Positions 15,447-36,141 of a DNA stretch of 36,353 bases are shown here, in pieces. The notes under the pieces are model-generated. The model had not been told where the DNA came from and ran no database searches. It was given only the letters and a program-made list of their open reading frames with translations. The stretch covers positions 1-36,353 of the forward strand of contig CAJQPL010000044.1 of assembly GCA_905480215.1 (NCBI GenBank). The letters are read 5' to 3'. Numbering within the stretch: position 1 is the stretch's first letter; the number at the start of each line of letters is the position of its first letter. The position numbers were made by a program, and so were the translations under genes. Source of the DNA: an uncultured Woeseiaceae bacterium. Its GTDB lineage: Bacteria; Pseudomonadota; Gammaproteobacteria; Steroidobacterales; Woeseiaceae.

Positions 15447-15448
15447 AA

Positions 15449-16631: not shown

Positions 16632-16672
16632 GTACGATTATAGACGCATTCACGAACAACAAGGTTCACAAA

Positions 16673-19903: not shown

Positions 19904-19977
19904 CGTCTGCAATTCAATGCGAAACGCACCTGTGGGTAAGCGAACAGACGTTGATTTCGAGTTTAGGCGAAGCCTTC

Positions 19978-19983
19978 AAAAGG
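19978..19983 (+). promoter_or_regulatory. Ribosome binding site deciding the M24 start
   Basis: AAAGGA eight bases before the ATG at 19992. The upstream in-frame ATG at 19917 has no such site and lies very near the predicted transcription start, so the shorter 432-aa protein is preferred. Confidence 0.6.
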
Positions 19984-19991
19984 ACAATCGT

Positions 19992-21290
19992 ATGTCAAAC
20001 CCTAGTAAGTCAGATAGCATCGTTACGGCGGACCTTGATCCGCGTTGGAACTGGGACAGGCCCATCGCGGCACCCGGTCGCGCCAACGTTGACTTCGAAG
20101 AACGCGTTGATTTTCGGCGCTTGCACCGGTACCGGATTGCGCGTGCGCAGCAGGCACTATCGAACTCCAAGCTCGGCGCGGTCTTGTGTTTTGACAACAA
20201 CAATATTCGCTATCTGACCAGTAGCGTTATTGGCGAATGGAGTCGTGACAAAATCTGTCGCTATACGTTGTTCACTGGCAGTGCAGACCCGTATTTGTGG
20301 GACTTTGGATCCGCGGCCGCACATCATCGATTGTACGCACCGTGGCTGAAGACGGATCGTTGCCGCGCTGGAATGCTTGGACTGCGTGGCTCCGTATCAG
20401 AGGAGGCGCAGCTGTTCAAAAACGCCGCAAAGGAAATTGCTGACCTGTTGCGTTTCGAAGGTATCGCCGATATGCCACTCGGTGTTGATATCGTTGAACC
20501 GCCCATGCTGTTCGCACTTCAGCAAGAAGGCCTTGACGTCAGGGATGCGCAACAAGTCTTGCTGGACGCACGCCAAATAAAGAGCATGGACGAAATCGTC
20601 TTACTCAATCAATCCGCTGCGATGGTTGATGGCGCTTATCACTTGCTTGCCGAAGAACTAAAACCAGGTGTTCGTGAGAACGAAATGGTTGCTATTGCCA
20701 ACAAGTTTCTCTACGACAATGGATCAGACGATGTTGAAGCGATCAACGCGGTGTCAGGCGAACGTTGTGCGCCCCATCCACACAACTTCACGGATCGCAT
20801 GTATCGACCGGGTGATCAGGCATTTTTCGACATCATCCAGTCGTATATGGGATATCGCACATGCTATTACCGCACGCTTAACGTGGGTCTCGCGACACCC
20901 GGCCAAATCGACGCTTACAAGCAGGCCAGGGAATGGATTGACGTGGCTATCAATGCGGTCAAACCGGGCACCACGACGGACACAATCGCCGCAATGTGGC
21001 CAGCAGCGACAGAGTTCGGTTTCGACAACGAAATGGAAGCGTTCGGACTGCAATTCGGACATGGGCTCGGGCTTGCTCTCCACGAGCGGCCAATCATCAG
21101 CCGGCTCACCTCTTTCGACCAACCGTTCGAACTGGAAGAGGGCATGGTGTTCGCCCTGGAAACGTATTGCCCTGCCGCAGACGGTAGTGGTGCTGCTCGC
21201 ATCGAAGAAGAAGTCGTCGTCACCAGTGACGGCTGCCGGATAATTACGCTTTTCCCGGCACAAGAACTGTTTGTTGCGAACGCTTACTAA
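19992..21290 (+). CDS. DddP/creatinase-like M24-family protein with altered metal site
   Basis: A 432-aa cytoplasmic M24-fold protein. The N-terminal domain (RYRIARAQQAL, LGAVLCFDNNNIRYLTSS, LWDFGS) resembles DddP-type proteins. The pita-bread domain keeps metal ligands Asp280 (FFDII), His357 (FGHGLG), Glu390 (ALETY) and Glu405 (RIEEEV). The second bridging Asp is Cys291 in GYRTCYYRT, and the extra Asp of DddP's F-D-T-D motif is Ile282. The position matching DddP's catalytic Asp377 is Leu363, so DMSP cleavage is unlikely. It leads an eight-gene operon with dehydrogenases, an E1/E2 complex and a TRAP transporter. It is probably a C-N, C-S or peptide-bond hydrolase or lyase with unusual metal use. 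Confidence 0.82.
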   Translation: MSNPSKSDSIVTADLDPRWNWDRPIAAPGRANVDFEERVDFRRLHRYRIARAQQALSNSKLGAVLCFDNNNIRYLTSSVIGEWSRDKICRYTLFTGSADPYLWDFGSAAAHHRLYAPWLKTDRCRAGMLGLRGSVSEEAQLFKNAAKEIADLLRFEGIADMPLGVDIVEPPMLFALQQEGLDVRDAQQVLLDARQIKSMDEIVLLNQSAAMVDGAYHLLAEELKPGVRENEMVAIANKFLYDNGSDDVEAINAVSGERCAPHPHNFTDRMYRPGDQAFFDIIQSYMGYRTCYYRTLNVGLATPGQIDAYKQAREWIDVAINAVKPGTTTDTIAAMWPAATEFGFDNEMEAFGLQFGHGLGLALHERPIISRLTSFDQPFELEEGMVFALETYCPAADGSGAARIEEEVVVTSDGCRIITLFPAQELFVANAY

Positions 21291-21299
21291 ACGGACGCG

Positions 21300-22757
21300 A
21301 TGAATATGATTGATGAACTAATAAAGGGCATACGAAAAGACTTGTACATCGGTGGTGAATGGCGAGAGGCCAGTGACCACGGCCGATTTGACGTGCGCGA
21401 CCCTGCCACAGAAGAGGTGATCGCATCGGTCGCCAGTGCCACCGCAGAAGATGCAACAGCAGCGGTCACGGCAGCATATGATGCGGGCCCGGAATGGGCC
21501 GCGCGAGCACCGATTGAGCGTGCCGACATACTGCGCAAATCCTATGACCTGATGCTGGCTCGATGTGACGACTATGCATCGATCATTTCCCGTGAAGAGG
21601 GAAAAACGCTTGCGGAGGCACGTGGTGAAGTGAATTACGCAGCAAGCTTCATGCGCTGGTTCGCCGAGGAGGCAGTGCGTTTCAGCGGCCGATTCGGGCG
21701 GGCACCTGCCGGCGGTAACAATATCCTCGTACAACACAAACCAGTTGGCGTATCGCTGTTGATTACACCGTGGAACTTTCCTGCAGCAATGGCAACGCGG
21801 AAAATTGCACCGGCTCTTGCCGCAGGTTGCACGACGATTCTCAAGCCAGCGTCGGAAACGCCATTGACCGCGTTAATGCTGGCCTCTTTGTATGAGGAAG
21901 CGGGAGTGCCACCGGGCGTCGTCAATGTGTTGCCATCACGTAGTTCTTCGGTCATTTCAAATACAATAATGAGTGATGACAGAACGCGAAAACTCTCATT
22001 TACAGGCTCGACTGAGGTCGGGCGAATCCTGCTCACGAAAGCCGCCGAGAAGATTATCAATTGCTCAATGGAACTTGGCGGCAATGCCCCGTTTATCGTT
22101 TTGGATGACGCCGATCTCGATGTCAGCTCGGAGGCAGCACTCGTTGCCAAAATTCGAAACGCTGGTGAATCCTGTATCGGTGCAAATCGGTTCTATGTGC
22201 ACTCCTCTATTTTCAATGAATTCTCGAAACGGCTTAGCGCCAAGATGAGTCAGTTAAAAGTTGGCCCCGGAATGGACGCTGGCATCGACGTCGGCCCACT
22301 CGTAAATGCGGATACCTGCGACAAAGTTGAGTCACTCGTCAAGCAGGCCGTTGAATTAGGCGCCACAGTACTGACAGGTGGTCGACGCCCCGATGGTCCC
22401 GGCCACTTTTACGAACCAACCGTCATGGTCGACATCCCAACAGAGGCAGAAATTCTGCACACCGAAATCTTTGGACCTGTTGCGACCATTGTGCCGTTTG
22501 AAGACGATGATCAGGCGGTCGAGATGGCCAATAACACGATCTTTGGTTTGGCGGCTTATGTATGTGGCAAAGACATTGGCCGGGCGCTTAGCGTCGCCGA
22601 TAGAATCGACGCGGGCGTTATGGGTATCAACCGCGGATTTATTTCTGACACATCCGCACCGTTCGGTGGCTTCAAACAAAGCGGTATCGGACGCGAGGGC
22701 TCGCAAGACGGGCTACACGAATTTCTCGAAACCAAATATGTCGCAGTTGACTGGTAA
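21300..22757 (+). CDS. Aldehyde dehydrogenase, succinate-semialdehyde dehydrogenase-like
   Basis: A 485-aa aldehyde dehydrogenase of the GabD-like group. Catalytic Glu258 lies in MELGGNAPF and Cys292 in NAGESCIGANRFYV, a segment typical of succinate/glutarate semialdehyde dehydrogenases. The cofactor segment ITPWNFPAAMATRK is at 155-168 and SAPFGGFKQSGIGREGS is near the C-terminus. It starts 9 bases after the M24 gene. With the divergently encoded hydroxyacid dehydrogenase it fits oxidation of a hydroxyacid by way of a semialdehyde. It is probably NAD(P)+-linked and cytoplasmic. Confidence 0.92.
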   Translation: MNMIDELIKGIRKDLYIGGEWREASDHGRFDVRDPATEEVIASVASATAEDATAAVTAAYDAGPEWAARAPIERADILRKSYDLMLARCDDYASIISREEGKTLAEARGEVNYAASFMRWFAEEAVRFSGRFGRAPAGGNNILVQHKPVGVSLLITPWNFPAAMATRKIAPALAAGCTTILKPASETPLTALMLASLYEEAGVPPGVVNVLPSRSSSVISNTIMSDDRTRKLSFTGSTEVGRILLTKAAEKIINCSMELGGNAPFIVLDDADLDVSSEAALVAKIRNAGESCIGANRFYVHSSIFNEFSKRLSAKMSQLKVGPGMDAGIDVGPLVNADTCDKVESLVKQAVELGATVLTGGRRPDGPGHFYEPTVMVDIPTEAEILHTEIFGPVATIVPFEDDDQAVEMANNTIFGLAAYVCGKDIGRALSVADRIDAGVMGINRGFISDTSAPFGGFKQSGIGREGSQDGLHEFLETKYVAVDW

Positions 22758-22801
22758 CGAGACAAAATACGTACGCGATATGCTCGAGGGTAGTTCTTAA
22801 A

Positions 22802-24997
22802 ATGACGGAAAAGAAACAGCTCCAGTTGACGGCGGAATGGGTTGAGTTCAGCGCAACTGCCGACGACTGGGACGCACTCGGTGCAACTGAGCTGCGGAAG
22901 ATGCTCAATCATATGCACATAATTCGAGCGTTCGAAGAGGAAATGCTGGAACTGGATCGCCAGGGTCTGGCACATGGCCCTGTGCACGTCAGCGTTGGAC
23001 AAGAAGGCGCGATGGTCGCCGCCATGTCAAGCCTGCGCACGTCAGACCTCGTCAACGGTTCGCACCGTGGACACCATGTTTTTCTTGGTAAATGCCTGAA
23101 CCATGTACAACCGGATGGCTACGACCCTGGCTCCGACCCAATTCCGGATGCGTTCGACAACCTGGTTTACCGAACGATGGCCGAAATCATGGGCCTCAGC
23201 CCCGGCTACTGTGAAGGTCGTGGTGGCTCAATGCATTTGCGCTGGGACGAAGCCGGCGTTATTGGAACGAACGCGATTGTGGGGGGCGGCGTACCGTTGG
23301 CCAATGGTGCAGCCTGGTCTTTGCAAAGAGATGGCGAGGGCGATGTCGCGGTCACCTGTTTTGGCGACGGCTCCTGTCATATCGGAAATGTTCTCGAATC
23401 ACTCAACCTTGCTGCTCTCTACGACCTGCCGATTTGTTTTTTGATTGAAAACAATCATTACGCAGTTTCGACAACGCTCGAAGAGGAAGCTCGTGAAACC
23501 CGCATGTCATCGCGTGGCCTGGCATTTGGCATTCCATCGTTTCGTGTCGACGGCATGGATTCAGTCGCCGTGCGCATGGCCATGGAACACGTCGTCAAGC
23601 TGTTACGTGAGGGTAAAGGACCGGCCGTTCTTGAACTCGACGTCTATCGCTTTTATCACCACAGTGGCGGGCTTCCCGGCAGCGCATTCGGTTACAGAAG
23701 CAAACAGGAAGAACAGGAAGCCCGTGACCGCGATGCCATACTACGTCTTGAAAACGGTTTGCTTGAACGCGACTGGCTAACGGATAATCAGCTGCAGTCG
23801 ATTAAAGACAATGCGACCGCTTGCGTACGAAAGGCCTCCGCTCTTCTCACCGAGGAGGTGGGTGGAAAGCGAAAAATCATCGACTCCCTGTGGCCCGATG
23901 TTAGCTTCCGAGACAGTGGCTTGCGTGGCGACCTGTCCGAATTCGCGAATATCGACTTTGTAGAACAGGAAACCTACGACGGCACTATTCAGAACGTGAA
24001 GTTCATAGAAACCATGGCAAAAGGCATGGTGCGCCGCTTCGAAACGGACGATCGCTATTTCGTCATGGGCGAGGATGTACACAAGCTGCGCGGCGGCACA
24101 AACGGCGCGACGAAGGGAATTCCCGAGCGCTGGCCGGATCGTTGTGTACCAACGCCAATCGCTGAACACGGATTCGTTGGATTAACCGGCGGGGTCGCAA
24201 TGGTCGGCAAGTATCGTCCTATCGTTGAGTTGATGTATCCAGACTTTGGATTGGTTGCCGCTGATCAGCTGTTCAATCAGATTGCGAAGGCGCGCCATAT
24301 GTTTGGCGGCCACTCTTCCGTGCCGCTCGTACTTCGAACCAAGATCGCGCTTGGCAGTGGCTACGGCTCGCAACACTCAATGGATCCAGCGGGCTTGTTT
24401 GCGATGTGGCCCGGTTGGCGGATCGTTGCGCCATCGACACCGTTCGACTACGTCGGGCTAATGAATTCGGCACTGCTCTGCGAGGACCCTGTCATGGTCA
24501 TCGAGCATGTCGAGTTATACAACACCAAGGGACCCGGTACCGAAGGTGACTACGACTATTACATTCCGCTCGGCAAAGCCAAAGTCGTGCGACCGGGCAA
24601 GGCCATGACGATCCTGACCTACCTCACAATGGTCGACAAAGCCGTTCGAGCCGCAGACCAGTTGGGCATTGACGCAGAAGTTATTGATCTGCGTTCGCTG
24701 GATCGCGGCAGTCTCGACTGGGAGACGATTGGCGAAAGTGTGCGCAAAACCAACCATGTCGTCATGCTTGAACAGGGTCCATTAACAACCTCATACGGTG
24801 CGATGCTGACAGACGAGCTGCAACGCCGCTTCTTCGACTATCTCGATCATCCGGTGCAGCGGATTCACGGTGGCGAAGCATCGCCCAGCGTATCGAAAGT
24901 CCTTGAAAGGGCGGCTTTTGTCGGCGACGAGGAGATTGTCGCTGGATTGCAGCGCATGCTCGCCGACCAGGGTCAGCAGCCAGCTGCAGCCGACTGA
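22802..24997 (+). CDS. Fused E1 alpha-beta subunit of a thiamine-diphosphate 2-oxoacid (or acetoin) dehydrogenase
   Basis: A 731-aa fusion. The alpha half (about 30-340) has HVSVGQEGAM, GRGGSMH and the thiamine-diphosphate motif starting GDG at 188-190 and ending in NN at 217-218. The beta half (about 395-715) begins NVKFIETMAKGMVRRFE and continues with MGEDV, PIAEHGFVGLTGGVAM and HMFGG, as in PDHB/BCKDHB/AcoB proteins. Most relatives are two separate genes. It decarboxylates a 2-oxoacid (or cleaves an acetoin-like ketol) and passes the acyl group to the lipoyl E2 encoded two genes on. No E3 is present in the window. The exact substrate is uncertain. Confidence 0.93.
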   Translation: MTEKKQLQLTAEWVEFSATADDWDALGATELRKMLNHMHIIRAFEEEMLELDRQGLAHGPVHVSVGQEGAMVAAMSSLRTSDLVNGSHRGHHVFLGKCLNHVQPDGYDPGSDPIPDAFDNLVYRTMAEIMGLSPGYCEGRGGSMHLRWDEAGVIGTNAIVGGGVPLANGAAWSLQRDGEGDVAVTCFGDGSCHIGNVLESLNLAALYDLPICFLIENNHYAVSTTLEEEARETRMSSRGLAFGIPSFRVDGMDSVAVRMAMEHVVKLLREGKGPAVLELDVYRFYHHSGGLPGSAFGYRSKQEEQEARDRDAILRLENGLLERDWLTDNQLQSIKDNATACVRKASALLTEEVGGKRKIIDSLWPDVSFRDSGLRGDLSEFANIDFVEQETYDGTIQNVKFIETMAKGMVRRFETDDRYFVMGEDVHKLRGGTNGATKGIPERWPDRCVPTPIAEHGFVGLTGGVAMVGKYRPIVELMYPDFGLVAADQLFNQIAKARHMFGGHSSVPLVLRTKIALGSGYGSQHSMDPAGLFAMWPGWRIVAPSTPFDYVGLMNSALLCEDPVMVIEHVELYNTKGPGTEGDYDYYIPLGKAKVVRPGKAMTILTYLTMVDKAVRAADQLGIDAEVIDLRSLDRGSLDWETIGESVRKTNHVVMLEQGPLTTSYGAMLTDELQRRFFDYLDHPVQRIHGGEASPSVSKVLERAAFVGDEEIVAGLQRMLADQGQQPAAAD

Positions 24998-25021
24998 TAA
25001 TTGCACGGAGAACTAACAGTA

Positions 25022-25564
25022 ATGAATTCTAAAACCAATGGTCTGCCTGGGCTCCGCGGAACCGATCATATTGGCTTCACAGTCCCGGACGTTGACGAAG
25101 CGACAAACTTCTTCGTTGATGTAATTGGGTGTGAGCCGTTTTATCGGGACGGCCCGCTGCAGTCGGATACCGACTGGATGGCCGTACATCTGAACGTGCA
25201 CCCGGATGCCGTCATACGAAAGATTAGCTGGTTACGGTGCGCCAATGGGCCGAACTTTGAAATCTTTGAGTACGAAGCGCCTGATCAGGTTACGACCGAA
25301 GCAAAAAACAGCGATATAGGCGGTCACCATCTGGCCTTCTATGTCGATGATTTTGATGCGGCCCTCGAGCACCTGAAACAACATGACGTCCACATCCTTG
25401 GAGAACCGACCGTGCGTGTGGCCGGGCCAAATGCCGGACAGACCTGGATTTACTTTCTAACGCCCTGGGGCATGCAGCTCGAACTTGTCAGCTACCCGAA
25501 TGGTAAGGGCTACGAAAAGGACTACGAAAACAAACTTTGGCATCCGGCAAAACCGGCTGCCTGA
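25022..25564 (+). CDS. VOC (glyoxalase/dioxygenase superfamily) protein
   Basis: A 180-aa vicinal-oxygen-chelate protein from the ATG at 25022, with GGAGAA nine bases upstream; a TTG at 25001 would add seven residues. Two beta-alpha-beta-beta-beta halves are visible: GTDHIGFTVPDVDEATNFF, then NFEIFEYEAP, GHHLAFYVDDFDAALEHL and GMQLELVSYP. Probable metal ligands are His16, Glu80 (or Glu83), His102 and Glu154. It sits between E1 and E2 of the 2-oxoacid dehydrogenase, so it may prepare the oxoacid (isomerase, epimerase or glyoxalase-like step). The family is clear; the reaction is unknown. Confidence 0.85.
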   Translation: MNSKTNGLPGLRGTDHIGFTVPDVDEATNFFVDVIGCEPFYRDGPLQSDTDWMAVHLNVHPDAVIRKISWLRCANGPNFEIFEYEAPDQVTTEAKNSDIGGHHLAFYVDDFDAALEHLKQHDVHILGEPTVRVAGPNAGQTWIYFLTPWGMQLELVSYPNGKGYEKDYENKLWHPAKPAA

Positions 25565-25587
25565 TCAGACTACAGGGGAACAAAAAG

Positions 25588-26850
25588 GTGGCAATTGAGA
25601 TTCGACTTCCGGCAATCGACGCAGACTTTGAAGCCGGTGCGATTGCGTCATGGCACAAGGCCGTTGGCGATAGCATCGAGAAAGGTGAAGTCATTGTCGA
25701 TGTCGAGACCGACAAAGCCGTTGTCGAAGTTGAGGCAAGTGATTCCGGAATTCTCGGCAGCATTGTCGTGCCGGCTGGCACTGAAGACGTTGCCGTCAAC
25801 ACCGTCATCGGCGTATTACTTGAGGCGGGCGAAACCATCGGCGACATCGATGGCGCGGAACCGGCACTTAAGCAAGATACGCCGCTCGCTGCGGTCGAGG
25901 ACGTAAGTCAGGCCATCAGTAATGGAGCAGCCGCAATCGACGTTACTGCGTCTGTGATAACTGCAACGGCGACGGACGGTCACCTGTTTGCAAGCCCCCT
26001 GGCGCGGCGAATCGCGGAGCAACACGAAATAGATCTGGCAACGATCAAGGGACGCGGCCCAAATGGGCGCATCCTCAAAGCCGATGTTGAACAGGCGCTG
26101 CAGGATGGCAAGTCACCGCAGGCAGCTGCTGCTGCCGCAGAAGCACCGCGAGGCACATTTACCACAATACCGAACAGCAAAGTCCGTAAAGTCATTGCTC
26201 GTCGACTAACCGAGGCCAAACAACAGATACCGCACTTTTACCTGACTGTAGATTGCGAACTCGATGCGCTTCTCGGTAGCCGACAGCAGATCAATGAACG
26301 ACACAGCACGAACGGCTCCAATATCAAAGTATCGGTGAATGACTTTATCGTGAAAGCGGCCGCACTGGCGTTACTCGATGTTCCGGCAGCGAATGCCAGT
26401 TGGGCCGAGGACGCGATTCGACGTTACGACGACATCGACGTTGCTGTAGCCGTTGCGACCGCAAATGGCCTGATCACACCGGTGGTACGCCAGGCTGATA
26501 GAAAATCGCTCGATGACATTTCCATTGAAGTAAAAAATCTGGCGAGCCGTGCCAACAACGGCCAACTTCAACCCGACGAGTACAAAGGCGGCGGCTTTAC
26601 GATTTCCAACCTTGGGATGTACGGCATCAAGGAATTCAGCGCAATCATCAATCCGCCACAGTCCTGCATTCTTGCAATTGGTGCCGGAGAAAAACGGCCA
26701 ATAGTCCGCGACGAGTCATTGGCAATCGCAACCATGATGAGCTGTACATTGTCGGTTGATCACCGCTCGGTTGACGGCGCGGTTGGCGCCGAGTTCCTGC
26801 AAGCATTTAAGCAATATATCGAAGCACCCTCCCTGCTCCTTCATGGATGA
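25588..26850 (+). CDS. Dihydrolipoamide acyltransferase E2 subunit
   Basis: A 420-aa E2 starting at GTG 25588, eight bases after AGGGGA; the upstream ATG at 25537 lies inside the VOC gene. Domains in order: one lipoyl domain (1-75, lipoyl-lysine Lys43 in VETDKAV), a linker, a peripheral-subunit-binding domain (ASPLARRIAEQHEIDL...GRGPNGRILKADVE, about 131-170), an Ala-rich linker and the catalytic domain, with His392 and Asp396 in DHRSVDG. It accepts the acyl group from the fused E1 and transfers it to CoA. The E3 dihydrolipoamide dehydrogenase needed for turnover is not in the window. Confidence 0.95.
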   Translation: MAIEIRLPAIDADFEAGAIASWHKAVGDSIEKGEVIVDVETDKAVVEVEASDSGILGSIVVPAGTEDVAVNTVIGVLLEAGETIGDIDGAEPALKQDTPLAAVEDVSQAISNGAAAIDVTASVITATATDGHLFASPLARRIAEQHEIDLATIKGRGPNGRILKADVEQALQDGKSPQAAAAAAEAPRGTFTTIPNSKVRKVIARRLTEAKQQIPHFYLTVDCELDALLGSRQQINERHSTNGSNIKVSVNDFIVKAAALALLDVPAANASWAEDAIRRYDDIDVAVAVATANGLITPVVRQADRKSLDDISIEVKNLASRANNGQLQPDEYKGGGFTISNLGMYGIKEFSAIINPPQSCILAIGAGEKRPIVRDESLAIATMMSCTLSVDHRSVDGAVGAEFLQAFKQYIEAPSLLLHG

Positions 26851-26891
26851 AGGGAATGCCCTCGAGATTCACTTTTAAGGAGTACAAACAC

Positions 26892-27929
26892 ATGAGCACG
26901 ACTTCACTACAACAAGCACGCAGTTCGTCAGTTTGTCGTTTCGGCTGTTGGGCACTGTTGATCTGCTCGCTGGCCTTGACCGCTTGTGGGGATGGCACCA
27001 ACAAAGCAGAAGAAAAAATACTGATCAAGTTTCCTCATGTAACGGCGCCGGGCACGCCAAAGGGAAAAGCTGCTGATCGATTCCGCGACCTTGTGCATGA
27101 ACGACTTGGCGACCGCGTCACCGTCGAAGTGTACCCGTCCGGCCAGCTGATGAACGATGATGACTCGATCGATGCGCTTGCGTTCGGCGAAGTGCAAATG
27201 ATTGCCGTTTCGTTGTCTAAGTTCGATCGTCTTACCAAGAAATATCAGCTCTTCGATCTGCCGTTCATGTTCAACAATATCGAGGCCGTCGAACGTTTTC
27301 AAAGCAGCCCATCAGGCGCCGCGCTGTTAACCGCGATGAATGATAACGGTCTTACCGGCCTCGGCTTCTGGCACAACGGCATGAAGCAGTTTAGCGGACC
27401 TGAGCCGATGACAACGCCGGCCGCTGCGGAAGGTTTAAAGTTTAGAATTATGGAATCCGACGTGCTGCAAGCGCAGATTCTGCAGGTTGGCGGCAACCCA
27501 CAGAAAATGGCGCTTGGCGAGGTCTACCAAGCGCTGCAGACCGGCGCCGTGGATGCACAGGAGAATACCTGGTCGAACATATACTCAGCGAAGTTTTATG
27601 AAGTTCAGCCGCACATCACGCAGTCAAATCACGGCTACATTGGCTACCTCGTCCTGGTAAACAGCGGCTTCTGGTCATCAATTCCAGACGACATCCGCTC
27701 TGAGCTACAATCGATCATGGACGAAACATCCGCTTGGGCAAATGCACAGTCAACTGCAATCAATCTCGAGGCGCTTGAGAAGATAAAAGCATCCGAGAGA
27801 TCGAATGTTGTAACGCTTACCCCAGAACAGATCGAAGAGTGGCGCGTCGCCATGCGGCCAGTATGGACTCAGTTTGAAGAGGCCATCGGCAGCGACATCA
27901 TCGAAGCGGCGCAACAGTCTTCGCAGTGA
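26892..27929 (+). CDS. dctP: TRAP transporter substrate-binding protein, DctP family, lipoprotein
   Basis: A 345-aa solute receptor from the ATG at 26892, with AAGGAG nine bases upstream; an earlier ATG at 26847 overlaps the E2 stop and lacks support. A hydrophobic signal ends in the lipobox LTAC, so Cys32 should be lipidated. The DctP fold follows (FPHVTAPGTPKGKAADRFRDLV, LFDLPFMFNN, GFWHNGMKQFSG, GLKFRIMES, QKMALGEVYQALQTGAVDAQENT). Family members bind organic acids in the periplasm and deliver them to the QM permease. Placement after the E1/E2 genes says the ligand probably feeds this operon. Confidence 0.94.
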   Translation: MSTTSLQQARSSSVCRFGCWALLICSLALTACGDGTNKAEEKILIKFPHVTAPGTPKGKAADRFRDLVHERLGDRVTVEVYPSGQLMNDDDSIDALAFGEVQMIAVSLSKFDRLTKKYQLFDLPFMFNNIEAVERFQSSPSGAALLTAMNDNGLTGLGFWHNGMKQFSGPEPMTTPAAAEGLKFRIMESDVLQAQILQVGGNPQKMALGEVYQALQTGAVDAQENTWSNIYSAKFYEVQPHITQSNHGYIGYLVLVNSGFWSSIPDDIRSELQSIMDETSAWANAQSTAINLEALEKIKASERSNVVTLTPEQIEEWRVAMRPVWTQFEEAIGSDIIEAAQQSSQ

Positions 27930-28417
27930 TGGCACAGTTCAATTTCAAATCAATACTAGAGCGCTTTGAAGAAATTGCGATGGCGTCGCTGCTCGCGTTC
28001 ATGACGCTACTGACCTTCACGCAAGTGGTATTGCGCTATGTATTCAATAGTGGTTGGGTGTGGTCACTTGAGGCGACCACCTATGCTTTTGCTGCATTGG
28101 TACTTGTCGGTATGTCTTACGGTGTTCGCACTAATAGTCATATCGCGGTCGATCTCATTACCCGGCGCCTGCCACCAGCGATGAGAAAGACCGTCACTCT
28201 TGCTGCAGTAGCAATGTGTCTCTTGTACTGCGGAATGATGCTGTACGGCTCCTCTATTTTCGTTGATAAACTCGCCGCGCTCGGCAACGATGCTCGCGAC
28301 ATTCCAGTCGCGAAGTGGATTTTGACACTCGTGATGCCAATAGGGTTTGCCCTCCTGAGCTTTCGTTTTCTGGTTGTTGGATGGCAGGTCATCAAGGGTA
28401 CAGGCGTTAATCGATGA
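27929..28417 (+). CDS. dctQ: TRAP transporter small permease, DctQ family
   Basis: A 162-aa membrane protein with four hydrophobic segments. The DctQ hallmark VVLRYVFNSGWVWSLEATTYAF lies after the first segment. Its ATG at 27929 overlaps the last base of the DctP stop, so translation is coupled; a GTG one codon earlier is less likely. It forms the QM membrane complex with the next gene product and uses a sodium gradient, as is known for the family. Confidence 0.93.
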   Translation: MAQFNFKSILERFEEIAMASLLAFMTLLTFTQVVLRYVFNSGWVWSLEATTYAFAALVLVGMSYGVRTNSHIAVDLITRRLPPAMRKTVTLAAVAMCLLYCGMMLYGSSIFVDKLAALGNDARDIPVAKWILTLVMPIGFALLSFRFLVVGWQVIKGTGVNR

Positions 28418-29694
28418 TCGCCGTCGCCCTATTGCTCGCACTGTTCGTTTTCCTGTTAGTAGGAATTCCTGTCGCAATTTCTTTGGGCCTTGCCAGTACG
28501 CTGACAATGCTTATGTTCGGCAATCAAAGTCTGTTGTCGATGGCACAAAAATTCTTTCATACGATGCAGGTTTATCCTTTACTGGCCGTGCCATTTTTCA
28601 TACTCGCCGGGACATTCCTGACGACCGGCGGCGTTGCCCGCCGCATGATCAATTTCGCAAATGCGCTCGTTGGACATTTCAGAGGTGGCCTGGCGATGGC
28701 GGCACTTCTTGCCAGCGCGTTTTTCGCAGCGGTTTCCGGCTCTGCGCCGGCCACCGTCGTCGCAGTTGGCAGCGTAATGATCGCCGGTATGATCGCGTCA
28801 GGTTATACAAAACCGTTCGCTGCTGGTGTTATCTGCAACGCAGGAACGCTGGGTATCCTGATACCGCCATCTCTGGTCATGGTCGTCTATGGTGCAATCA
28901 CTGAATCATCCATTGGACGCCTGTTCATTGCCGGCATATTGCCCGGCATAGTCTTGACAATAGCGATGATGGCAACGATTTCTTTTATTGCCAGAAAACA
29001 GGATATGCCGCGACAAGAGCGGGCTGACTTCAAAACAGTACTCAGGACTTTTCGCGAAGCCGCCTGGGGCCTATTGCTCATCGTAATCATATTGGGCGGC
29101 ATTTATGCCGGCGTATTCACGCCAACCGAAGCGGCTGCCGTCTCTGCTGTGTACGCATTCTTCATCGCTGTTTTCGTTTATGGCGACATCACGATGAAAG
29201 ACGTGCCCCGGGTACTCGTTGAGTCCAGCAAGATTACTGTGATGTTGATGTTTATCATCGCTAATGCATTCATGTTTGCCTACTTGCTAACAACGATGCA
29301 GATTCCGCAAACAGCATCCGACTTTATTGGCGGCATGGGACTACCGGCATGGGGCTTCTTGTTAGTCCTGAATTTACTGCTGCTCATGGCGGGCAATTTT
29401 ATGGAACCGACCTCGGTCGTCCTTATTTTGACGCCTATTGTTTTCCCAATCGCGATGAAGCTGGGTATCGACCCGATTCACCTGGGCGTGGTGATGGTTG
29501 TGAACATGCAAATTGGCTTGGTTACGCCGCCAGTAGGTCTTAATCTTTTCGTCACCGCCGGCGTTGCCGAAATGTCCCTTGAGGAAACGATTAAAGCATC
29601 GGCGCCGTGGTTGGCCGTGTTGCTGGTCGTGCTGCTGCTGATCACATTCGTACCCTGGATATCGCTGGTGATTCCAAATTTGATCGGTGCTTAA
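28414..29694 (+). CDS. dctM: TRAP transporter large permease, DctM family
   Basis: A 426-aa permease with about 12 membrane segments, overlapping dctQ by ATGA at 28414-28417. Family motifs are clear: VGIPVAISLG near the start, PFFILAGTFLTTGG, AAVSGSAPATVVAVGSVM, GTLGILIPPSLVMVVYG, GVFTPTEAAAVSAVYA and LVTPPVGLNLFV near the C-terminus. It carries the ion-coupled transport path of the system. Its stop lies only 4 bases from the convergent stop of the next operon and no terminator hairpin is visible there. Confidence 0.95.
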   Translation: MIAVALLLALFVFLLVGIPVAISLGLASTLTMLMFGNQSLLSMAQKFFHTMQVYPLLAVPFFILAGTFLTTGGVARRMINFANALVGHFRGGLAMAALLASAFFAAVSGSAPATVVAVGSVMIAGMIASGYTKPFAAGVICNAGTLGILIPPSLVMVVYGAITESSIGRLFIAGILPGIVLTIAMMATISFIARKQDMPRQERADFKTVLRTFREAAWGLLLIVIILGGIYAGVFTPTEAAAVSAVYAFFIAVFVYGDITMKDVPRVLVESSKITVMLMFIIANAFMFAYLLTTMQIPQTASDFIGGMGLPAWGFLLVLNLLLLMAGNFMEPTSVVLILTPIVFPIAMKLGIDPIHLGVVMVVNMQIGLVTPPVGLNLFVTAGVAEMSLEETIKASAPWLAVLLVVLLLITFVPWISLVIPNLIGA

Positions 29695-29698
29695 GCAG

Positions 29699-30655
29699 TC
29701 ACTCGTTAATGTTGCTTGTCCTGCATTTACTGAGGTCTTCGCGACACTCAACTGCTTCTTGCTGAGTAATCCGCTGGTTTGGCTCGCGGTAACGATAGAG
29801 GTACCCCCACATCGTCACTATGTTGTTGTCCAAATGCAGGTCATGGCCACGATAGTCACTGAACTCTTCCATCTTTATGATCTCGCGCATCTCAGGCAGA
29901 GTCTTGCCATCGACCATTAGCGCCAAAACCTCATCGCGCAAGGCCTTTAAGTACTTGTAACCATCACTAAAACTCTGCTGATCAGATATCGCCCCATGTC
30001 CCGGTAGAACAATCTCGACATCCTCGAGTATCGCCAGTTGCTTCATGACCTTTAGCGTACTGTGAACATCCATGTCCCGGTAGTCGGGAAACAGTGAGCG
30101 GCCTTTTGCCATATCCACAGCAATGAGAACCTTCTCGGCGGGAACGTGAACCTGGATCAAGTTATCGCTGTGAGACGGGCCAAAGTACAGTAGCTTGACG
30201 GCTACACCACCGAGGTCAATTTCCATGCTCGTTTCGAACGTAATTTCAGGAATCATCGAATCCCGTTTCTCACGAACAAGGTGTGGAACGAGATTCGTAT
30301 GACCGACCGCCGTCGCGGTGTCGCTAAACACTTGTGTATTACAGTTGTGGTCCTGATGATCGTGGCTCAGAATCACGTAGCGAACCGGCATGTCGTGCCG
30401 CTTCTCGATTTCTTGCTTTAGCCAATCCATCGTTCCTGAACCGCAATAGTGCCCGTCAACGACCGCTATGCTGCGCGTACCAACGACATATGCACCGTAC
30501 TGATTATCCGAACCCCAACGATACACGCTCTTTGACACCTGCTCGATGCCACGATTGACGCCCCATTGGCGTTCGGCAGAGAATGCCGAAGAAGCGAAGC
30601 TGAGTAAGCCCGCAAATAGAAACGCAGTTATGAAAAGTGTTGGTCTCGTTGTCAT
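29699..30655 (-). CDS. Secreted metallo-beta-lactamase-fold hydrolase
   Basis: A 318-aa protein with a Sec signal (MTTRPTLFITAFLF then ASSAFSA). The metal motif is complete: His98-x-His100-x-Asp102-His103 in SHDHQDH, His162 in GPSHSDN, Asp181 in AVDMAKG and His220 in PGHGA. It resembles SoxH-like and quinoprotein-relay-associated zinc hydrolases, which is the group expected beside periplasmic cytochrome and propeller genes. Two cysteines lie near the C-terminus (VECREDLSKC). It is last in the leftward operon, 15 bases after the Sco-PCu(A)C gene. Its substrate is unknown. Confidence 0.88.
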   Translation of the reverse strand: MTTRPTLFITAFLFAGLLSFASSAFSAERQWGVNRGIEQVSKSVYRWGSDNQYGAYVVGTRSIAVVDGHYCGSGTMDWLKQEIEKRHDMPVRYVILSHDHQDHNCNTQVFSDTATAVGHTNLVPHLVREKRDSMIPEITFETSMEIDLGGVAVKLLYFGPSHSDNLIQVHVPAEKVLIAVDMAKGRSLFPDYRDMDVHSTLKVMKQLAILEDVEIVLPGHGAISDQQSFSDGYKYLKALRDEVLALMVDGKTLPEMREIIKMEEFSDYRGHDLHLDNNIVTMWGYLYRYREPNQRITQQEAVECREDLSKCRTSNINE

Positions 30656-30670
30656 CTTCCGGTTTCCTTT

Positions 30671-31606
30671 TTAATTGATGCTTGATAACGGACGCTGCGG
30701 CAGCACGGCAGTTAGTTTTTCGCCGCTCGCGGTAAGTAAATCCAGTTCGACGTCAGCGCCCGCGCGTATCTTTTCGTCGATACCGAACAACATAAGGTGT
30801 AACTGTTGTGGCTGCAGGCACACGGTGCTGTTCGCTGCAATTTCCACAGCAGCTGCCTGCTTCATTCTCACGATACCCTGCTCATGGTGTATCTCGTGAA
30901 TTTCGATACGCTGTACTGATGAACTGGATGCGCCAACTATGTGAATCGCCGCTGATCGGTCGTTCTGAATACACATGAATCCTGCGATGGTTTTAGACTT
31001 GCTCCCCGTCGGCTCACTGGCCCACGCATCGACGATCTGAATTTCACCAGCGGACAATGGTAAGTACTTGTCCAGCACTTCTACAATGGACTCTGCCTTG
31101 TCCCCGTAGCCGAAAACATCCAGAAAACTACCGTCTCTATTCATCAAGTACAGATATGAGGAATGGTAGATTTCTGTGCTATCGCCAGCAGCGCTGATAT
31201 CAGTGCCGCCGAATGTGACATTGAATGATTTCGCCGCAGCCGCAATCTGTTGCCGACTCCCGGTCAGGCCTACCAAGGACGGGTGAAAGTGCCGCACGTA
31301 GCTTGCAATGTTATCCACGGTGTCGTTAGCAGGATCGATCGTAATGAATAACGGCTGCACCCGATCAGCACGCTCGCCAAGTAGTTTCATAGCGCGGGTA
31401 ACTTCCAACATGGTGGTCGGGCAAATAACCGGGCAACGTGTGAAGCCAAAAAATACCAGTCGATATTTGCCGTCAAAGCTCGTTTCGCTGACTGCCGCAC
31501 CACGGTGATCAATGAGATCAAAGCGGCCAGAAACCGTCTCAACTGAGTGCGCTGTCGCCGCAAACATCAAACACAGAATCGCAATTGAATTTCGTAATAT
31601 CAACAT
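30671..31606 (-). CDS. Fused Sco1/SenC and PCu(A)C copper chaperone
   Basis: A 311-aa periplasmic protein from the ATG at 31606, one base after the upstream gene's stop. A signal peptide (1-20) is followed by a Sco/SenC domain (24-185) with the copper motif Cys58-Pro-Val-Ile-Cys62 and the distal His148. A PCu(A)C domain (about 187-305) follows, with His237, Met248, His270 and Met272: Met-x21-His-x-Met spacing is exact, and His-x10-Met precedes it. Sco and PCu(A)C normally act as separate proteins in CuA assembly of cytochrome oxidase. Here the fusion in an operon with a cytochrome/cupredoxin protein suggests copper delivery to that partner. Confidence 0.88.
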   Translation of the reverse strand: MLILRNSIAILCLMFAATAHSVETVSGRFDLIDHRGAAVSETSFDGKYRLVFFGFTRCPVICPTTMLEVTRAMKLLGERADRVQPLFITIDPANDTVDNIASYVRHFHPSLVGLTGSRQQIAAAAKSFNVTFGGTDISAAGDSTEIYHSSYLYLMNRDGSFLDVFGYGDKAESIVEVLDKYLPLSAGEIQIVDAWASEPTGSKSKTIAGFMCIQNDRSAAIHIVGASSSSVQRIEIHEIHHEQGIVRMKQAAAVEIAANSTVCLQPQQLHLMLFGIDEKIRAGADVELDLLTASGEKLTAVLPQRPLSSIN

Positions 31607-31607
31607 G

Positions 31608-32723
31608 TCAATGACACAGGTTATTCGACACGGCAATCGACGCCTCACCGATGTCCAGCGGTAAGCCTGTGAGCGTTTTACTAAGCGTCTGATTACGCAT
31701 GTCAAAGAACGCAAATTGCCCGCTAGCGGCCAGCGGCACGGCCAGAGTCTTCGAGTCGGACGTCACGATAGCCTCCAGTGGCCGCTGCTGCAGTTGATGT
31801 TGCTGCAGTACTTTGCCGCTGTCCACTTCAATGAATACTACGTTGCCCGACTGCGTCGTGATAGCGGCAACGGTGTCCAACCATCCTGAGTGTATCGACA
31901 ACGGTCGATCGGCGAGGTGCACCGAGTACTGCAATCGCAGATTATCTGTCGCGATCGCCGATACCGTATTGCTAGTGCTACCAGCAACGAACATATAGCG
32001 ACCATCCGCCGTGCCCCAGGGGCGATCAGGGTTCGGTGGTACTTTAATAGTGGCTAGCAAGGTGAAGTCACGCAGGTTAATGACGAAGACCTCATCTGTA
32101 CTGGTGCCACTAACAAATCCGAGCAGCCCATCCGCACTTCTGGATAGCGCAGAAAGCTTCTGTCCGGATTCCGTAAGCTGCAGCTCACCCCGTTTCGACC
32201 AAAGGTCAATGAAGTGCAATGAACCGTTGCTACTGTCCGGCCAATAGAGTTTCGATCCATCCGGGCTGAAGGTGAATGCTGCGCTCGTACTCACATCGTC
32301 AGCGCTCAACAACACCGCACGCCGTTTGACGTTATGAACTTCCAGATGCTTGCTCTGCTTTTCGTAAATTGCGACGGTATCGCCGAGCGGACTCAGGTTG
32401 ATGTCGTCGGGCGTCATCTCCAGTGAATAATCGATCTGCTCTAGATCCGCATCCGCGAGGTTAACCAAGGTCAGCCTTCGCGCCGCTCGGTGCGAGACAA
32501 TCAGGGCATCAAGCCCGTCGGATGCCAAGATCTGATCTGGACGCGCATCTAATTCGATCGAAGCAGCAACGTCCTGCTCTTTCAAGTCGAACGCGTATAC
32601 ACGTTTTTCATCGCCACTTGCTGAAAACGCATAGCGAGATCCGTCATCCAAAGCTGCAGCCGACGATACCGTCGCAAGCGTGTTTAAAACGACAAGCATT
32701 GCGATTTGAGAAGCTCGCTTCAT
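31608..32723 (-). CDS. Secreted YVTN-type beta-propeller protein
   Basis: A 371-aa protein with a Sec signal (MKRASQIAMLVVLNTLATVSSAAA). The rest is built of repeated four-strand blades: RYAFSASGDEKRVYAFDLKEQDVAASI, AFTFSPDGSKLYWPDSSNGSLHFIDLW, VFVINLRDFTLLATIKVPPNPDRPWGTADGRYMFVAGSTSNTVSAI show the YVTN pattern. No catalytic residues or heme sites are visible. It resembles propellers linked with PQQ or quinoprotein dehydrogenase clusters, though no such dehydrogenase is here. It lies between the CcdA-like and Sco genes, 3 bases and 1 base from each, so it is tightly coupled to them. Confidence 0.8.
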   Translation of the reverse strand: MKRASQIAMLVVLNTLATVSSAAALDDGSRYAFSASGDEKRVYAFDLKEQDVAASIELDARPDQILASDGLDALIVSHRAARRLTLVNLADADLEQIDYSLEMTPDDINLSPLGDTVAIYEKQSKHLEVHNVKRRAVLLSADDVSTSAAFTFSPDGSKLYWPDSSNGSLHFIDLWSKRGELQLTESGQKLSALSRSADGLLGFVSGTSTDEVFVINLRDFTLLATIKVPPNPDRPWGTADGRYMFVAGSTSNTVSAIATDNLRLQYSVHLADRPLSIHSGWLDTVAAITTQSGNVVFIEVDSGKVLQQHQLQQRPLEAIVTSDSKTLAVPLAASGQFAFFDMRNQTLSKTLTGLPLDIGEASIAVSNNLCH

Positions 32724-32726
32724 GCG

Positions 32727-34121
32727 CTAGGCAAGACCCAGAAACGGATAAATAAAGTCGCTGACGGTATGAAAATTATCGGTAAGAAGAATTAAGCCGA
32801 ATGCCACCATAATCAGCATGCTAACAAATCCGATCTGGGGCGCAGACTGCTGAATTCTGGCAAGTAACGGCATTGCGCGCGACAAGAACAAGGCTGCGAG
32901 CATAAACGGAATAACGACCCCAAGTGAGAAAGCTAACATCATCGCTGCACCGACCAAAGCGCTGCCAATGGCACCAACATAGACTAACAACGTGGCTATA
33001 ATCGCGCCGCCAAAACACGTCAGGCAACCCAATGAAAAGCCAGCGGCGGTTAACGCCGCGCCATATATTGACTTGGACTCACTAATTCGCGACTGCAACT
33101 CGCTGGGAACAAGCTTACAAATTATTGGCGCTTTCGAGCGTATTCCGACCCACAGTCCCATCGCGATGACGACAATGCCAGCAATAATCGTCAACGTCGG
33201 ACTCCAGATTGAAAAGAACATTTGCGCCTGTTTTCCGGCATGGCCGATTGCCGCACCAGTAAGCGTGAACAATGTCGAAAAGCCGATGACAAAGGCGAAT
33301 GCCGTTCTGATGATTATGCGCCTCGAATTGCTGGCTAGGTTTTGCTCATCACCAACAGCATGATCTGCCGTAAACCCGGCGACAGATGCGACGAACACAA
33401 CGATCAGCTGTAGAAGGCAAGGCGTAAGTACGAAAGACAAAAGACCAGCCGAAATACCTAGAACCATAAGCGGCGTCCACACCGTAGCGTTCTCAATGTG
33501 GTCGGGATATTCGATTGGCAGTTTCCAGGTCGCGGTTCGAGTTCCACCTCCCGGATCCCAGGTGCTAGCAAGTTCAAGTCTTAGCTCGCGCGAAGTATCG
33601 GTAACGATCAGATCGCCCGCCGCATCGAAGCGCGGGAATCGAACGGTCAATACGCGGTGGTGATAAACGAGAAGCGGACCTTCCACATCGTGCGACGCAA
33701 TCTCTCTATCATCAACGAAAAGTCGGGCGTCGGGCAGGATTTCAGGAAGGTCTTCAATGTGTGTCGTTTCCGTCACCAGGAAGACGTGATAGAGGTCCGG
33801 GCGATAATCACGCACCGCGTCCGCCCGATCCGTCACTTCGAAAAAACGTGGCGGCGCATACAGCATATCTACTTGCGCCTCGCCGACACCGAATGTCGTC
33901 CGCGTCAGGAGCTGTCCGACAGTGATCGCGTTGCGCAGTCGTTCTTGCTTAACATCGCCACCAACGGTTTGCAGCAAATTCTGATCTTTCACGAAATACG
34001 GAAAGATCAGCCAGCTACCGGCAATTGCGGTCATAAGCACAAACAGGACGAGCACGGTTCCCGCACGTATAGAGCGAGTCCAAAACGTTGCCCCTGTCAG
34101 GCTGTTGTGTGCTACATCCAT
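32727..34121 (-). CDS. CcdA/DsbD-like membrane thiol-redox protein with N-terminal periplasmic domain
   Basis: A 464-aa membrane protein. One N-terminal anchor (about 20-44) precedes a domain of about 165 residues (45-210), probably periplasmic, that I do not recognise. The C-terminal half (215-460) has six or more membrane segments of the CcdA/DsbD type with cysteines in the expected places: Cys235 in VLTPCLLQL, and Cys366 and Cys369 in LGCLTCFGG. Such proteins pass electrons across the membrane to reduce periplasmic cysteines, for example for heme attachment or copper-site cysteines. That fits the Sco, cytochrome c and CxxC-cupredoxin neighbours. It lies 22 bases after the cytochrome gene. 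Confidence 0.75.
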   Translation of the reverse strand: MDVAHNSLTGATFWTRSIRAGTVLVLFVLMTAIAGSWLIFPYFVKDQNLLQTVGGDVKQERLRNAITVGQLLTRTTFGVGEAQVDMLYAPPRFFEVTDRADAVRDYRPDLYHVFLVTETTHIEDLPEILPDARLFVDDREIASHDVEGPLLVYHHRVLTVRFPRFDAAGDLIVTDTSRELRLELASTWDPGGGTRTATWKLPIEYPDHIENATVWTPLMVLGISAGLLSFVLTPCLLQLIVVFVASVAGFTADHAVGDEQNLASNSRRIIIRTAFAFVIGFSTLFTLTGAAIGHAGKQAQMFFSIWSPTLTIIAGIVVIAMGLWVGIRSKAPIICKLVPSELQSRISESKSIYGAALTAAGFSLGCLTCFGGAIIATLLVYVGAIGSALVGAAMMLAFSLGVVIPFMLAALFLSRAMPLLARIQQSAPQIGFVSMLIMVAFGLILLTDNFHTVSDFIYPFLGLA

Positions 34122-34143
34122 ATTGGTTGGATGGCGCTTCGTC

Positions 34144-36141
34144 CTATGGGTTCAAACTACTTGTAACTACCACTGGCTTAAACGCCTTTGCGCTCGCATC
34201 AACATTAATAGTGAATTGCTCGCCCTCGAGTTTGCAGTCGGCGCAATAGATCGTATACGTGCCTTCTTCAGCGGGCGCTTGCCAATCGACGGTGCCCAGA
34301 CTTCGAGCCGGAATACTCATCGGTTCAAGGCCAAGGTTGTCACTCTTGAATTCGTACTCCGAGAATCCGGCATTGTTGATGATGAGCTGAACATTTGTGC
34401 CTGGACGCACGCTTAACGAGTCGGGCATGAACCGTCCGCGTTTGACGAGTGTGCGCACTACCTGATTCGATCCGAGATACTCAAGATACGCCGATACGGA
34501 TTTTATCTGCTCTTCTGTGATTGCATCACGCACCACGGCCATCTCACCGATTCCGGAAATTGCTGCACGAACCGCACCTTCGCTTGCTCCGCGTGTATAT
34601 GGCCCAACGCCCATATCACCTTCAGCGAAATTTCCGTGGCATCCCGCGCAACCAATTCCGGCAACCGTTCTAAATACCTCTCGACCTTCAGCAACAGCAG
34701 CACTACTGGGCGACATATTCGCCTCAATAATCGAGCCAGACCCCATGGAGCCCATTTTGCCAGCAAGAATATCGCGCTTCGTTTGCAATGCGCTGCCCCA
34801 CAATCCGCTCTGGTCCGATTGCGTCTCACCGTCTTCGTTCCAACCATCGGGGTAATGAACGAATGCGCCGGAGTGGGTGCTGCCACCATTGGGCATAGGT
34901 ATGCGCGCCGTAACCTGCAGCAAGTCAAGGTCAAACACCGCGACTTCAAAGCTCGCGTTACAACTGATCCAAAGTTCATTCGCTTCGGGATCAGGATGCA
35001 GCGTTCCGTGGTCACCGCGAATGCAGGCCGTATAGAATTGGTTCATTGAGCGTGCGCCCGGCACTTGCATCGTCGTAGTGTCGACCATGCCGAGTACCTT
35101 GCCCTTATTATGTGATTCTTCACCCTTGCCAATTGTGTAGATGTAACGATCATCCCAGCCGAAATGATTCCCGTAAGGACCATCAACGCCCGCGCGTTGC
35201 TCGGTGACAAATTCGCCGTGCTCCAAATCAACTTGGATGATGATGCTGTTTCGCGCGCCGGTTATGTAAGCCGTCTTGCTATCTGAAGTGTAATTGACCC
35301 AGACAGGCGCGCTGTCCGGTACGTGTATCCACTTCTTAACCGTCCAGTTTTCGGGATCGATCAACCATACGGGATTGTCTGTCAGGTGCTTACGCATGTC
35401 GAAATCGCGATAACGGCCGGTACCGATAATCTGGTCACCGTTTGGTGAAGCGAAGTACAGGTAACCTTCGCTACCTTGCTCCTGATGCGTGATGCTACCG
35501 ACCACCCTATTGTCGTCATCGGGATCCAAAACAAACATCGGCTGCGACCAACCGTAAAGGATGACGCGTTGTTCCCCATCTGGCGTAATATAAGATTTCG
35601 CGTGATGCGCCTGCCCCTGCAGCTTGATGACTTTGTCGATCTTCAGGGTCTTCGCATTAATAACAAGGAATCGACCGGCGTGCTCGCCGGTGGTCATGAA
35701 CGCCCCTTCGCCGGTCGGCAGGTATATCCATTTTCCGTCTGGCGATGTGCCGAGCCCGTGCGGCTCAAAGACATTCTTCCAGCCCCAGGAAAGCACATCG
35801 TAATTCTGGTTCGCGACCACTTCGCGCGTATCGGCGTCGATGATCGCCAATCCAGGCAATGTGACACCGCTGAGCAAACCGCCGTAGCCAGGCCCCTCCG
35901 TCGTAATGAACACCGTGGAATCTTCTTCAGGCGTCCATGCTGCCGGGCCGCTGGAGTCAAAACTGTACTCAAGGCTAATGCCAACCTGCTCCGACCATTT
36001 TGTCGCCCACGCTGCTTTTTGCTTTTCGGTCGCCGGTTTAGGTGCCGCACTCGCAGCGCCTGCGTGGAGCCACAAAAGCATCATCGCAACAACCGCTGTA
36101 ATGAGTTTGTTGCTCGTAAACTGGCACCTTATAACTGACAT
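34144..36141 (-). CDS. Secreted beta-propeller - cytochrome c - cupredoxin-like protein
   Basis: A 665-aa protein from the ATG at 36141, eight bases after AGGAGA; a longer frame to 36252 lacks support. After a Sec signal (1-32) comes a large propeller (about 60-435) related in appearance to cytochrome cd1/N2O-reductase-type propellers, with many His (128, 154, 179, 180, 326, 344, 378, 382, 423, 429). A cytochrome c domain follows (about 483-560) with heme motif Cys498-Ala-Gly-Cys501-His502 and a probable axial Met534. Last is a cupredoxin-like domain (566-647) whose usual His and Met ligands are missing and which has Cys633-x-x-Cys636. It leads the five-gene leftward operon. A periplasmic redox enzyme or electron relay is likely; the substrate is unknown. 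Confidence 0.85.
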   Translation of the reverse strand: MSVIRCQFTSNKLITAVVAMMLLWLHAGAASAAPKPATEKQKAAWATKWSEQVGISLEYSFDSSGPAAWTPEEDSTVFITTEGPGYGGLLSGVTLPGLAIIDADTREVVANQNYDVLSWGWKNVFEPHGLGTSPDGKWIYLPTGEGAFMTTGEHAGRFLVINAKTLKIDKVIKLQGQAHHAKSYITPDGEQRVILYGWSQPMFVLDPDDDNRVVGSITHQEQGSEGYLYFASPNGDQIIGTGRYRDFDMRKHLTDNPVWLIDPENWTVKKWIHVPDSAPVWVNYTSDSKTAYITGARNSIIIQVDLEHGEFVTEQRAGVDGPYGNHFGWDDRYIYTIGKGEESHNKGKVLGMVDTTTMQVPGARSMNQFYTACIRGDHGTLHPDPEANELWISCNASFEVAVFDLDLLQVTARIPMPNGGSTHSGAFVHYPDGWNEDGETQSDQSGLWGSALQTKRDILAGKMGSMGSGSIIEANMSPSSAAVAEGREVFRTVAGIGCAGCHGNFAEGDMGVGPYTRGASEGAVRAAISGIGEMAVVRDAITEEQIKSVSAYLEYLGSNQVVRTLVKRGRFMPDSLSVRPGTNVQLIINNAGFSEYEFKSDNLGLEPMSIPARSLGTVDWQAPAEEGTYTIYCADCKLEGEQFTINVDASAKAFKPVVVTSSLNP

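Follow-up and report, generated by a model that had tools for sequence, protein, structure and literature searches.

We analysed a five-gene operon at positions 29699–36141 of contig CAJQPL010000044.1, from an uncultured Woeseiaceae bacterium (assembly GCA_905480215.1). The window is the whole analysed stretch of 36,353 nucleotides. The lead gene of the operon probably encodes a periplasmic dehydrogenase that depends on copper and is matured by a set of proteins of its own, and we read the system as recurring, rare and uncharacterised. We put the probability of the copper dehydrogenase reading at roughly 0.55. It was drawn from gene content, gene order, conservation, co-occurrence and motifs, all of which were observed directly.

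All five open reading frames (ORFs) were confirmed on the minus strand, and the gaps between them were 22, 3, 1 and 15 bases. The tight, leftward packing described in an earlier note on this DNA was thus verified (gaps of 1–22 bases). The genes are as follows:

34144–36141, minus strand: lead, 665 aa from ATG, with a signal peptide, a seven-bladed propeller, a cytochrome c domain (CxxCH) and a cupredoxin-fold domain
32727–34121, minus strand: CcdA/DsbD-type membrane protein, 464 aa, with an extra N-terminal periplasmic domain
31608–32723, minus strand: second YVTN-type propeller (PROP2), 371 aa, C-terminus SNNLCH
30671–31606, minus strand: Sco copper chaperone fused to a PCu(A)C copper chaperone, 311 aa from ATG
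29699–30655, minus strand: periplasmic metallo-beta-lactamase-fold (MBL) hydrolase, a loose member of the gene set, 318 aa

The lead ORF is accompanied by a Shine-Dalgarno-like AGGAG. In Pfam, the lead matched Cupredoxin_1 (E 8e-7) and Cytochrome_CBB3 (E 3e-5); the whole-protein score of the latter was under the Pfam cut-off, which was passed with the C-terminal part alone (E 1.6e-6). No Pfam propeller family was matched by the lead propeller, and PROP2 had weak NCBIfam propeller matches only, every one under cut-off. The CcdA-like protein was assigned from Pfam (DsbD_TM/DsbD_2, E 2e-9), conservation, hydropathy and co-occurrence. The Sco-PCu(A)C fusion matched SCO1-SenC (E 5e-44) and PCuAC (E 9e-24), and its PDB sequence matches were Sco and PCu(A)C proteins. 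The MBL protein, assigned with Pfam and NCBIfam, matched Lactamase_B (E 1e-7). It distantly resembles the SoxH-related 'quinoprotein relay' zinc metallohydrolases (TIGR04558/TIGR04559), with a best NCBIfam score of 88 bits for TIGR04559 (cut-off 280); no PQQ enzyme was recognised among the window proteins scanned. A promoter and terminator scan gave results near shuffle level and was not used. The source contig is one of 87 in an incomplete genome (64.7% complete).

The lead was searched in 99 genomes (the own genome, 60 of the genus and 38 of the order), and 13 of them were matched. Close relatives were found in the own genome and in six of the 60 other genus genomes (G003, G011, G012, G016, G046 and G047; G and L numbers denote genomes and loci), with 67–85% identity overall and 76–78% over the propeller. 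Weak matches (25–30% identity) occurred in G013, G027, G065, G079 and G092, and their propellers are called A4 below. In G074, the match covered the cytochrome only, and this genome was not counted as a propeller genome. In the class sample, the lead was present at E 1e-30 in the own genome alone (1/369, with 0/368 others). A species-wide contig scan (84,980 species per the library description) found 13 lead loci (L039–L051), six of which belong to the six genus genomes named above. The hosts were Woeseiaceae, Porticoccaceae, Arenicellaceae and other proteobacterial metagenome-assembled genomes. As the scan used two short peptide patterns, relatives without both would be missed. No lead relative was found in viral contigs. 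The lead family is rare.

The CcdA-like gene followed the lead directly in 8 of the 13 loci (L039, L041, L042, L043, L044, L047, L048 and L049), while L045, L050 and L051 stop in or just past the lead. PROP2 and Sco were present in all seven loci extending past CcdA. The PCu(A)C domain was fused to Sco in the window and in L039, and had its own gene in L041 and L043; blastp did not find it beside Sco in L044, L048 and L049, and L047 is cut. The lead was a single gene in the window, L039, L040 and L042 and was split into two genes (propeller; cytochrome-cupredoxin) in 9 of the 13 loci (L041 and L043–L050), with L051 being cut. Since this gene order recurs in other genomes, the arrangement is more than chance. 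What recurs is a set of four genes: lead, CcdA-like, PROP2 and Sco, the last of these either with PCu(A)C or without it. The earlier note had counted the zinc hydrolase as part of a five-gene unit, but this gene is not constant. Among the 13 loci, it was found only in L041 (56% identity, 6 kb away); a homologue also lay near an A4-type locus in L074, and of all the loci examined only the window had the gene directly beside the set.

The CcdA-like protein (E 1e-40) was found in 11 of the 99 genomes (G000, G003, G011, G012, G013, G027, G046, G047, G065, G079 and G092), and all 11 fall among the 12 genomes with a lead or A4 propeller. The co-occurrence was 11/12 versus 0/87 (Fisher's exact test, p 9.5e-14), a value that describes the data and is not a test on independent samples, since the genomes are related. 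The lead of G016, the twelfth propeller genome, lies where one contig ends (L050), and its Sco lies where a different one ends (L080). In the class sample, the CcdA-like profile matched the own genome alone (1/369). A census of the five genes had been suggested as a check: the order of four recurred and the CcdA-like gene tracked the His propellers, while the hydrolase dropped out. G011 also carries a Sco-PROP2-CcdA group (L076, G011:C6) on a different contig from its lead (L046), with a CcdA that is 44% identical.

The lead propeller (residues 28–451) contains 14 His, eight of which were invariant in 14/14 sequences (128, 179, 180, 326, 344, 378, 382 and 423). Cys373 and Cys394 were likewise invariant (14/14). 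All invariant His and both Cys were retained in L051, which has 56–57% identity and much altered blades 3 and 4. Seven blades were counted from the predicted strands of AlphaFold2 (AF2) models, and the propeller model reached a pLDDT of 78.6 and a pTM of 0.87. Seven of the eight invariant His were predicted within the innermost strands of blades 1, 2, 5, 6 and 7 or immediately ahead of them; these strands were short in the model for blades 1 and 5. His344 lies in the B–C loop of blade 5, on the same face by general propeller topology. As the invariant His face the hub on one side of the predicted propeller, a metal site there is likely. Convergence of the propeller His in the hub, which the earlier note had suggested checking by structure prediction, is predicted for these eight from the strands of the model; the other six vary.

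The CxxCH of the cytochrome domain was kept in the window and in 10/10 relatives. The cupredoxin domain had YC-x-x-CK at the CuA position, again in the window and in 10/10 relatives, instead of C-x3-C-x3-H-x2-M. The CuA motif is thus absent, as had been noted before. By sequence, nitrosocyanin (E 0.017) is among the closest cupredoxins of solved structure.

The motifs of the partner proteins were intact. In Sco, the CxxxC and the distal His were kept, with C58, C62 and H148 invariant in 11/11 sequences. PCu(A)C chaperones carry the motif H-x10-M-x21-H-x-M, which the window protein has as H237-x10-M248-x21-H270-x-M272. The CcdA-like protein had eight invariant residues in 14/14 sequences (C235, C335, C366, C369, H121, H154, H155 and H451). 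PROP2 ended on SNN-x-CH with the stop next in 14/14 sequences across both subfamilies (31611–31628 in the window). We know of no described motif like it, and we propose that PROP2 serves in the hand-over of copper or thiols. That the partners are dedicated to assembling a metal site on the lead, through copper delivery and thiol reduction, had been suspected from the gene content; the partner co-occurrence, the intact chaperone motifs and the invariant His support this.

The A4 proteins have an N-terminal cytochrome c followed by the propeller, and no cupredoxin domain was seen in the two that were scanned with Pfam. Their propeller aligned to that of the lead with an hhalign probability of 99.4–99.5%, and five lead His were kept (aligned to H128, H179, H180, H378 and H423). 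In A4-bearing genomes, Sco, CcdA and PROP2 were grouped at L071, L072 and L073, in L073 directly behind the propeller gene. L074 and L075 had CcdA and PROP2, and tblastn detected no Sco in them. E1-alpha-, E1-beta- and E2-like genes preceded the A4 propeller in L034 and L036. The A4 profile found nothing in the class sample (0/369), a set that held no positive control. G079 had seven A4-type propeller matches (L008, L018, L021, L023, L025, L026 and L027), including two neighbours on C9, which suggests several substrates.

The operon does not stand alone: a larger catabolic locus includes it as its redox part. The linked genes in the window are as follows:

26847–29694, plus strand: TRAP (tripartite ATP-independent periplasmic) transporter DctP-DctQ-DctM, convergent with the operon
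19917–26850, plus strand: M24 hydrolase/lyase-like protein, aldehyde dehydrogenase, fused 2-oxoacid dehydrogenase E1, glyoxalase-fold protein and E2
16610–17425, plus strand: TauE/SafE-family exporter (Pfam PF01925, E 1.6e-20)

DctP and DctM were assigned with Pfam and NCBIfam, and DctQ was named by its position between them. The TRAP genes recur beside the operon in relatives. G047 has the redox, catabolic and TRAP genes all pointing the same way, in the order lead (two genes), CcdA, PROP2, Sco, M24, aldehyde dehydrogenase, E1, glyoxalase-fold, E2, DctP, DctQ, DctM, glutathione S-transferase (GST) and LacI. The window has the same redox and catabolic sets in convergent halves; neither GST nor LacI was recognised among its genes. 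GST, TauE and LacI genes were additionally present in L043 and L048 (a similar gene in the case of TauE in L048), and a rhodanese gene in L041 and L043. As a first guess from the TauE, GST and rhodanese neighbours, the substrate would be an organosulfur compound, which we consider doubtful. The M24 orthologue (E below 1e-200) was found in 10/12 propeller genomes versus 5/87 others (p 1.1e-8), and weaker M24 relatives were found in more genomes. Catabolic genes without the copper enzyme occurred in L082, L084 and L085.

The nearest NCBIfam model to the M24 protein (19917–21287) was the dimethylsulfoniopropionate (DMSP) lyase DddP. The assignment to DddP was rejected: the score was 104 bits versus a cut-off of 600, and the second M24 metal Asp is a Cys in the alignment. 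Judging by its sequence, the protein may possibly have a new M24 activity. A second M24-family gene (Creatinase_N and M24) lies at 1656–3035. A row of three kinds of genes at 13484–16354 (FAD monooxygenase, arylmalonate decarboxylase/EutA-like, allantoinase PuuE-like) is another catabolic set. Two methyltransferases of similar size (5459–6484 and 10372–11496) each begin with a long region that no Pfam family matched at E 1e-5, and two stretches of an 810-aa protein (6755–9184) match the serine beta-lactamase-fold family PF00144.

From the operon and its conservation we infer that copper is bound and where it sits, which way the electrons flow and what the partners do. The copper would sit in the propeller hub, held by H128, H179, H180, H326, H378/H382 and H423 at the starts of the innermost strands, with H344 contributing from a loop on the same face. 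This site would oxidise a small substrate. The cytochrome c domain, which lies in the same protein or, with a split lead, is encoded by the partner gene, would take up the electrons and hand them to the respiratory chain. Copper would be delivered by Sco and PCu(A)C, and the CcdA-like protein would supply reducing power, by which Sco and the target cysteines are kept reduced. PROP2 with its C-terminal Cys-His may be a dedicated assembly or hand-over factor. The substrate or product would be handled by the linked TRAP transporter and the cytoplasmic genes.

Several points weigh against the copper dehydrogenase. L040 and L046 carry the lead followed by other genes, with CcdA not adjoining. Counting G074 with its cytochrome-only match as positive lowers the co-occurrence to 11/13, the compared genomes are related, and the own genome is only 64.7% complete. 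The M24 gene was also present in 5/87 relatives without the propeller, and hence the pathway does not require the enzyme. In the propeller, blades 3 and 4 have no hub His, and the pLDDT was low in several His-bearing loops. The convergence of the His was deduced from predicted strands and general propeller topology. The best Foldseek matches of the propeller alone were generic YVTN, NirN, YncE and AADH folds, and NosZ was absent among the best 50 listed. Moreover, no sequence homology of the lead propeller to a proven copper propeller was detected (NosZ, L-NosZ, SBP56).

The lead could be a remote N2O reductase-like enzyme, whose hub His bind a CuZ-like cluster and in which heme c replaces CuA for electron entry; we consider this quite improbable. 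NosZ and its clade III form L-NosZ (NF052460) are like the lead in having a periplasmic propeller, His at the innermost strands and a C-terminal cupredoxin-fold domain. They differ in that the lead lacks the CuA ligands and the blade-4 His and has a cytochrome c domain inserted. With the full-length lead, Foldseek rows 1–41 against PDB were all N2O reductases (E 2e-16 to 4e-14; row 42 was a generic YVTN protein), at TM-scores of 0.31–0.39 and a root mean square deviation near 25 Å. This ranking reflects the two-domain layout, since the propeller folded alone did not show NosZ among the 50 rows listed. The lead scored 12 bits against NF052460 (cut-off 700) and 25 bits against TIGR04246 (cut-off 625), and the weak TIGR04246 match lies in the cupredoxin domain (E 7e-6). 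In hhalign, the lead propeller reached 4.6% against L-NosZ and 12.5% against NosZ, whereas L-NosZ and NosZ found each other; the comparison profiles were shallow (two sequences for L-NosZ, four for SBP56). By eye, the order of the hub His (H, HH, gap, H, H, H) resembles that of the L-NosZ proteins L057 and L058, which carry the full CuA motif. Of the seven CuZ His of the N2O reductase hub, six have comparable positions by eye, blade 4 is without one, and the lead has two further invariant His. NosD was above cut-off in 0/12 lead/A4 genomes (weak matches in five), which is a weak negative because no control genome was above cut-off and some genomes are incomplete. A nos_propeller match occurred in 1/40 genomes searched, and this was not a lead/A4 genome. 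Identity with NosZ was rejected, as neither the propeller-only fold nor hhalign supported it. The parallel drawn in the earlier note stands as an analogy, in domain layout and in His placement by eye, and fails for the propeller sequence and the propeller fold alone.

PMC5739008 describes MtoX as a periplasmic copper enzyme with an adjoining Sco1/SenC gene and His89, His90, His140 and His412 as proposed copper ligands. Like MtoX/SBP56 as described there, the lead has an HH pair with further His, which in the lead lie in flanking blades, and a Sco gene in the operon; unlike it, the lead belongs to another sequence family and has heme c and cupredoxin domains attached. A methanethiol oxidase-like enzyme, that is, a Cu-His propeller acting on a thiol and convergent with SBP56/MtoX, would also fit the GST, TauE and rhodanese neighbours in some loci. 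We regard it as unlikely: no MauG-type gene was found among the proteins scanned, PF05694 (SBP56) did not match the lead even when Pfam hits with E values up to 0.1 and 10 were admitted, and hhalign gave no match. Membership in SBP56 was rejected for want of sequence support. SBP56 itself was not found in the own genome nor in the nine lead/A4 genomes (of 12) that the search covered; as it is rare here (4/61), this says little.

Sco usually serves CuA-type cysteine sites. The copper might accordingly belong to the YCxxCK of the cupredoxin domain, both Cys of which are kept in the window and all ten relatives and which has nitrosocyanin among its closest solved structures, and the propeller would be only a scaffold for substrate binding or docking. 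The chances of this seem low to us: the CuA and type-1 ligand sets are absent, and the A4 genomes keep Sco-CcdA-PROP2 and five propeller His although neither of the two scanned A4 proteins has a cupredoxin domain. Very improbable is a cytochrome cd1-like protein whose propeller binds heme d1 with a His as ligand. The A4 layout is that of cd1, NirN and cd1 enzymes ranked high in Foldseek, and L037 matches PF02239 (E 1e-5, 24.5 bits versus a cut-off of 25.5); however, the copper chaperones would be left unexplained. A heme d1 enzyme was rejected, as NirJ was above cut-off in 0/12 lead/A4 genomes (best 63 bits versus 515, with weak matches in 12/12), although this negative is weak because no control genome was above cut-off.

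The operon also resembles the copper assembly sets of cytochrome c oxidase, which have the same kinds of chaperones (Sco, PCu(A)C and CcdA); according to PMC9145763, CcdA might reduce Sco. None of the window proteins scanned was recognised as an oxidase subunit, and the CcdA-like partner here differs in that it co-occurs with His propellers. The literature search for such a composition found nothing specific. The earlier note knew of no named system with this composition, and the family-model and literature searches made found none either; none of the known families tested fits.

The copper dehydrogenase may also be taken a step further. To our knowledge, only two classes of enzyme, N2O reductase and SBP56/MtoX, have copper in a propeller hub, and the gases that they act on are relevant to climate or sulfur. 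The lead could represent a third class of separate evolutionary origin, in which the hub is wired to a heme c of the same protein and assembly has a dedicated line (Sco/PCu(A)C, a CcdA whose extra periplasmic domain bears His, and a propeller ending in Cys-His). It would then serve marine Woeseiaceae and their relatives as periplasmic dehydrogenase within an organosulfur catabolic locus. We offer this tentatively, with the odds against it. If true, such a class, its maturation set being compact and separable, would show the origin and loading of these sites. It would also mean a new respiratory entry point for marine Woeseia-group bacteria, testable from about four genes.

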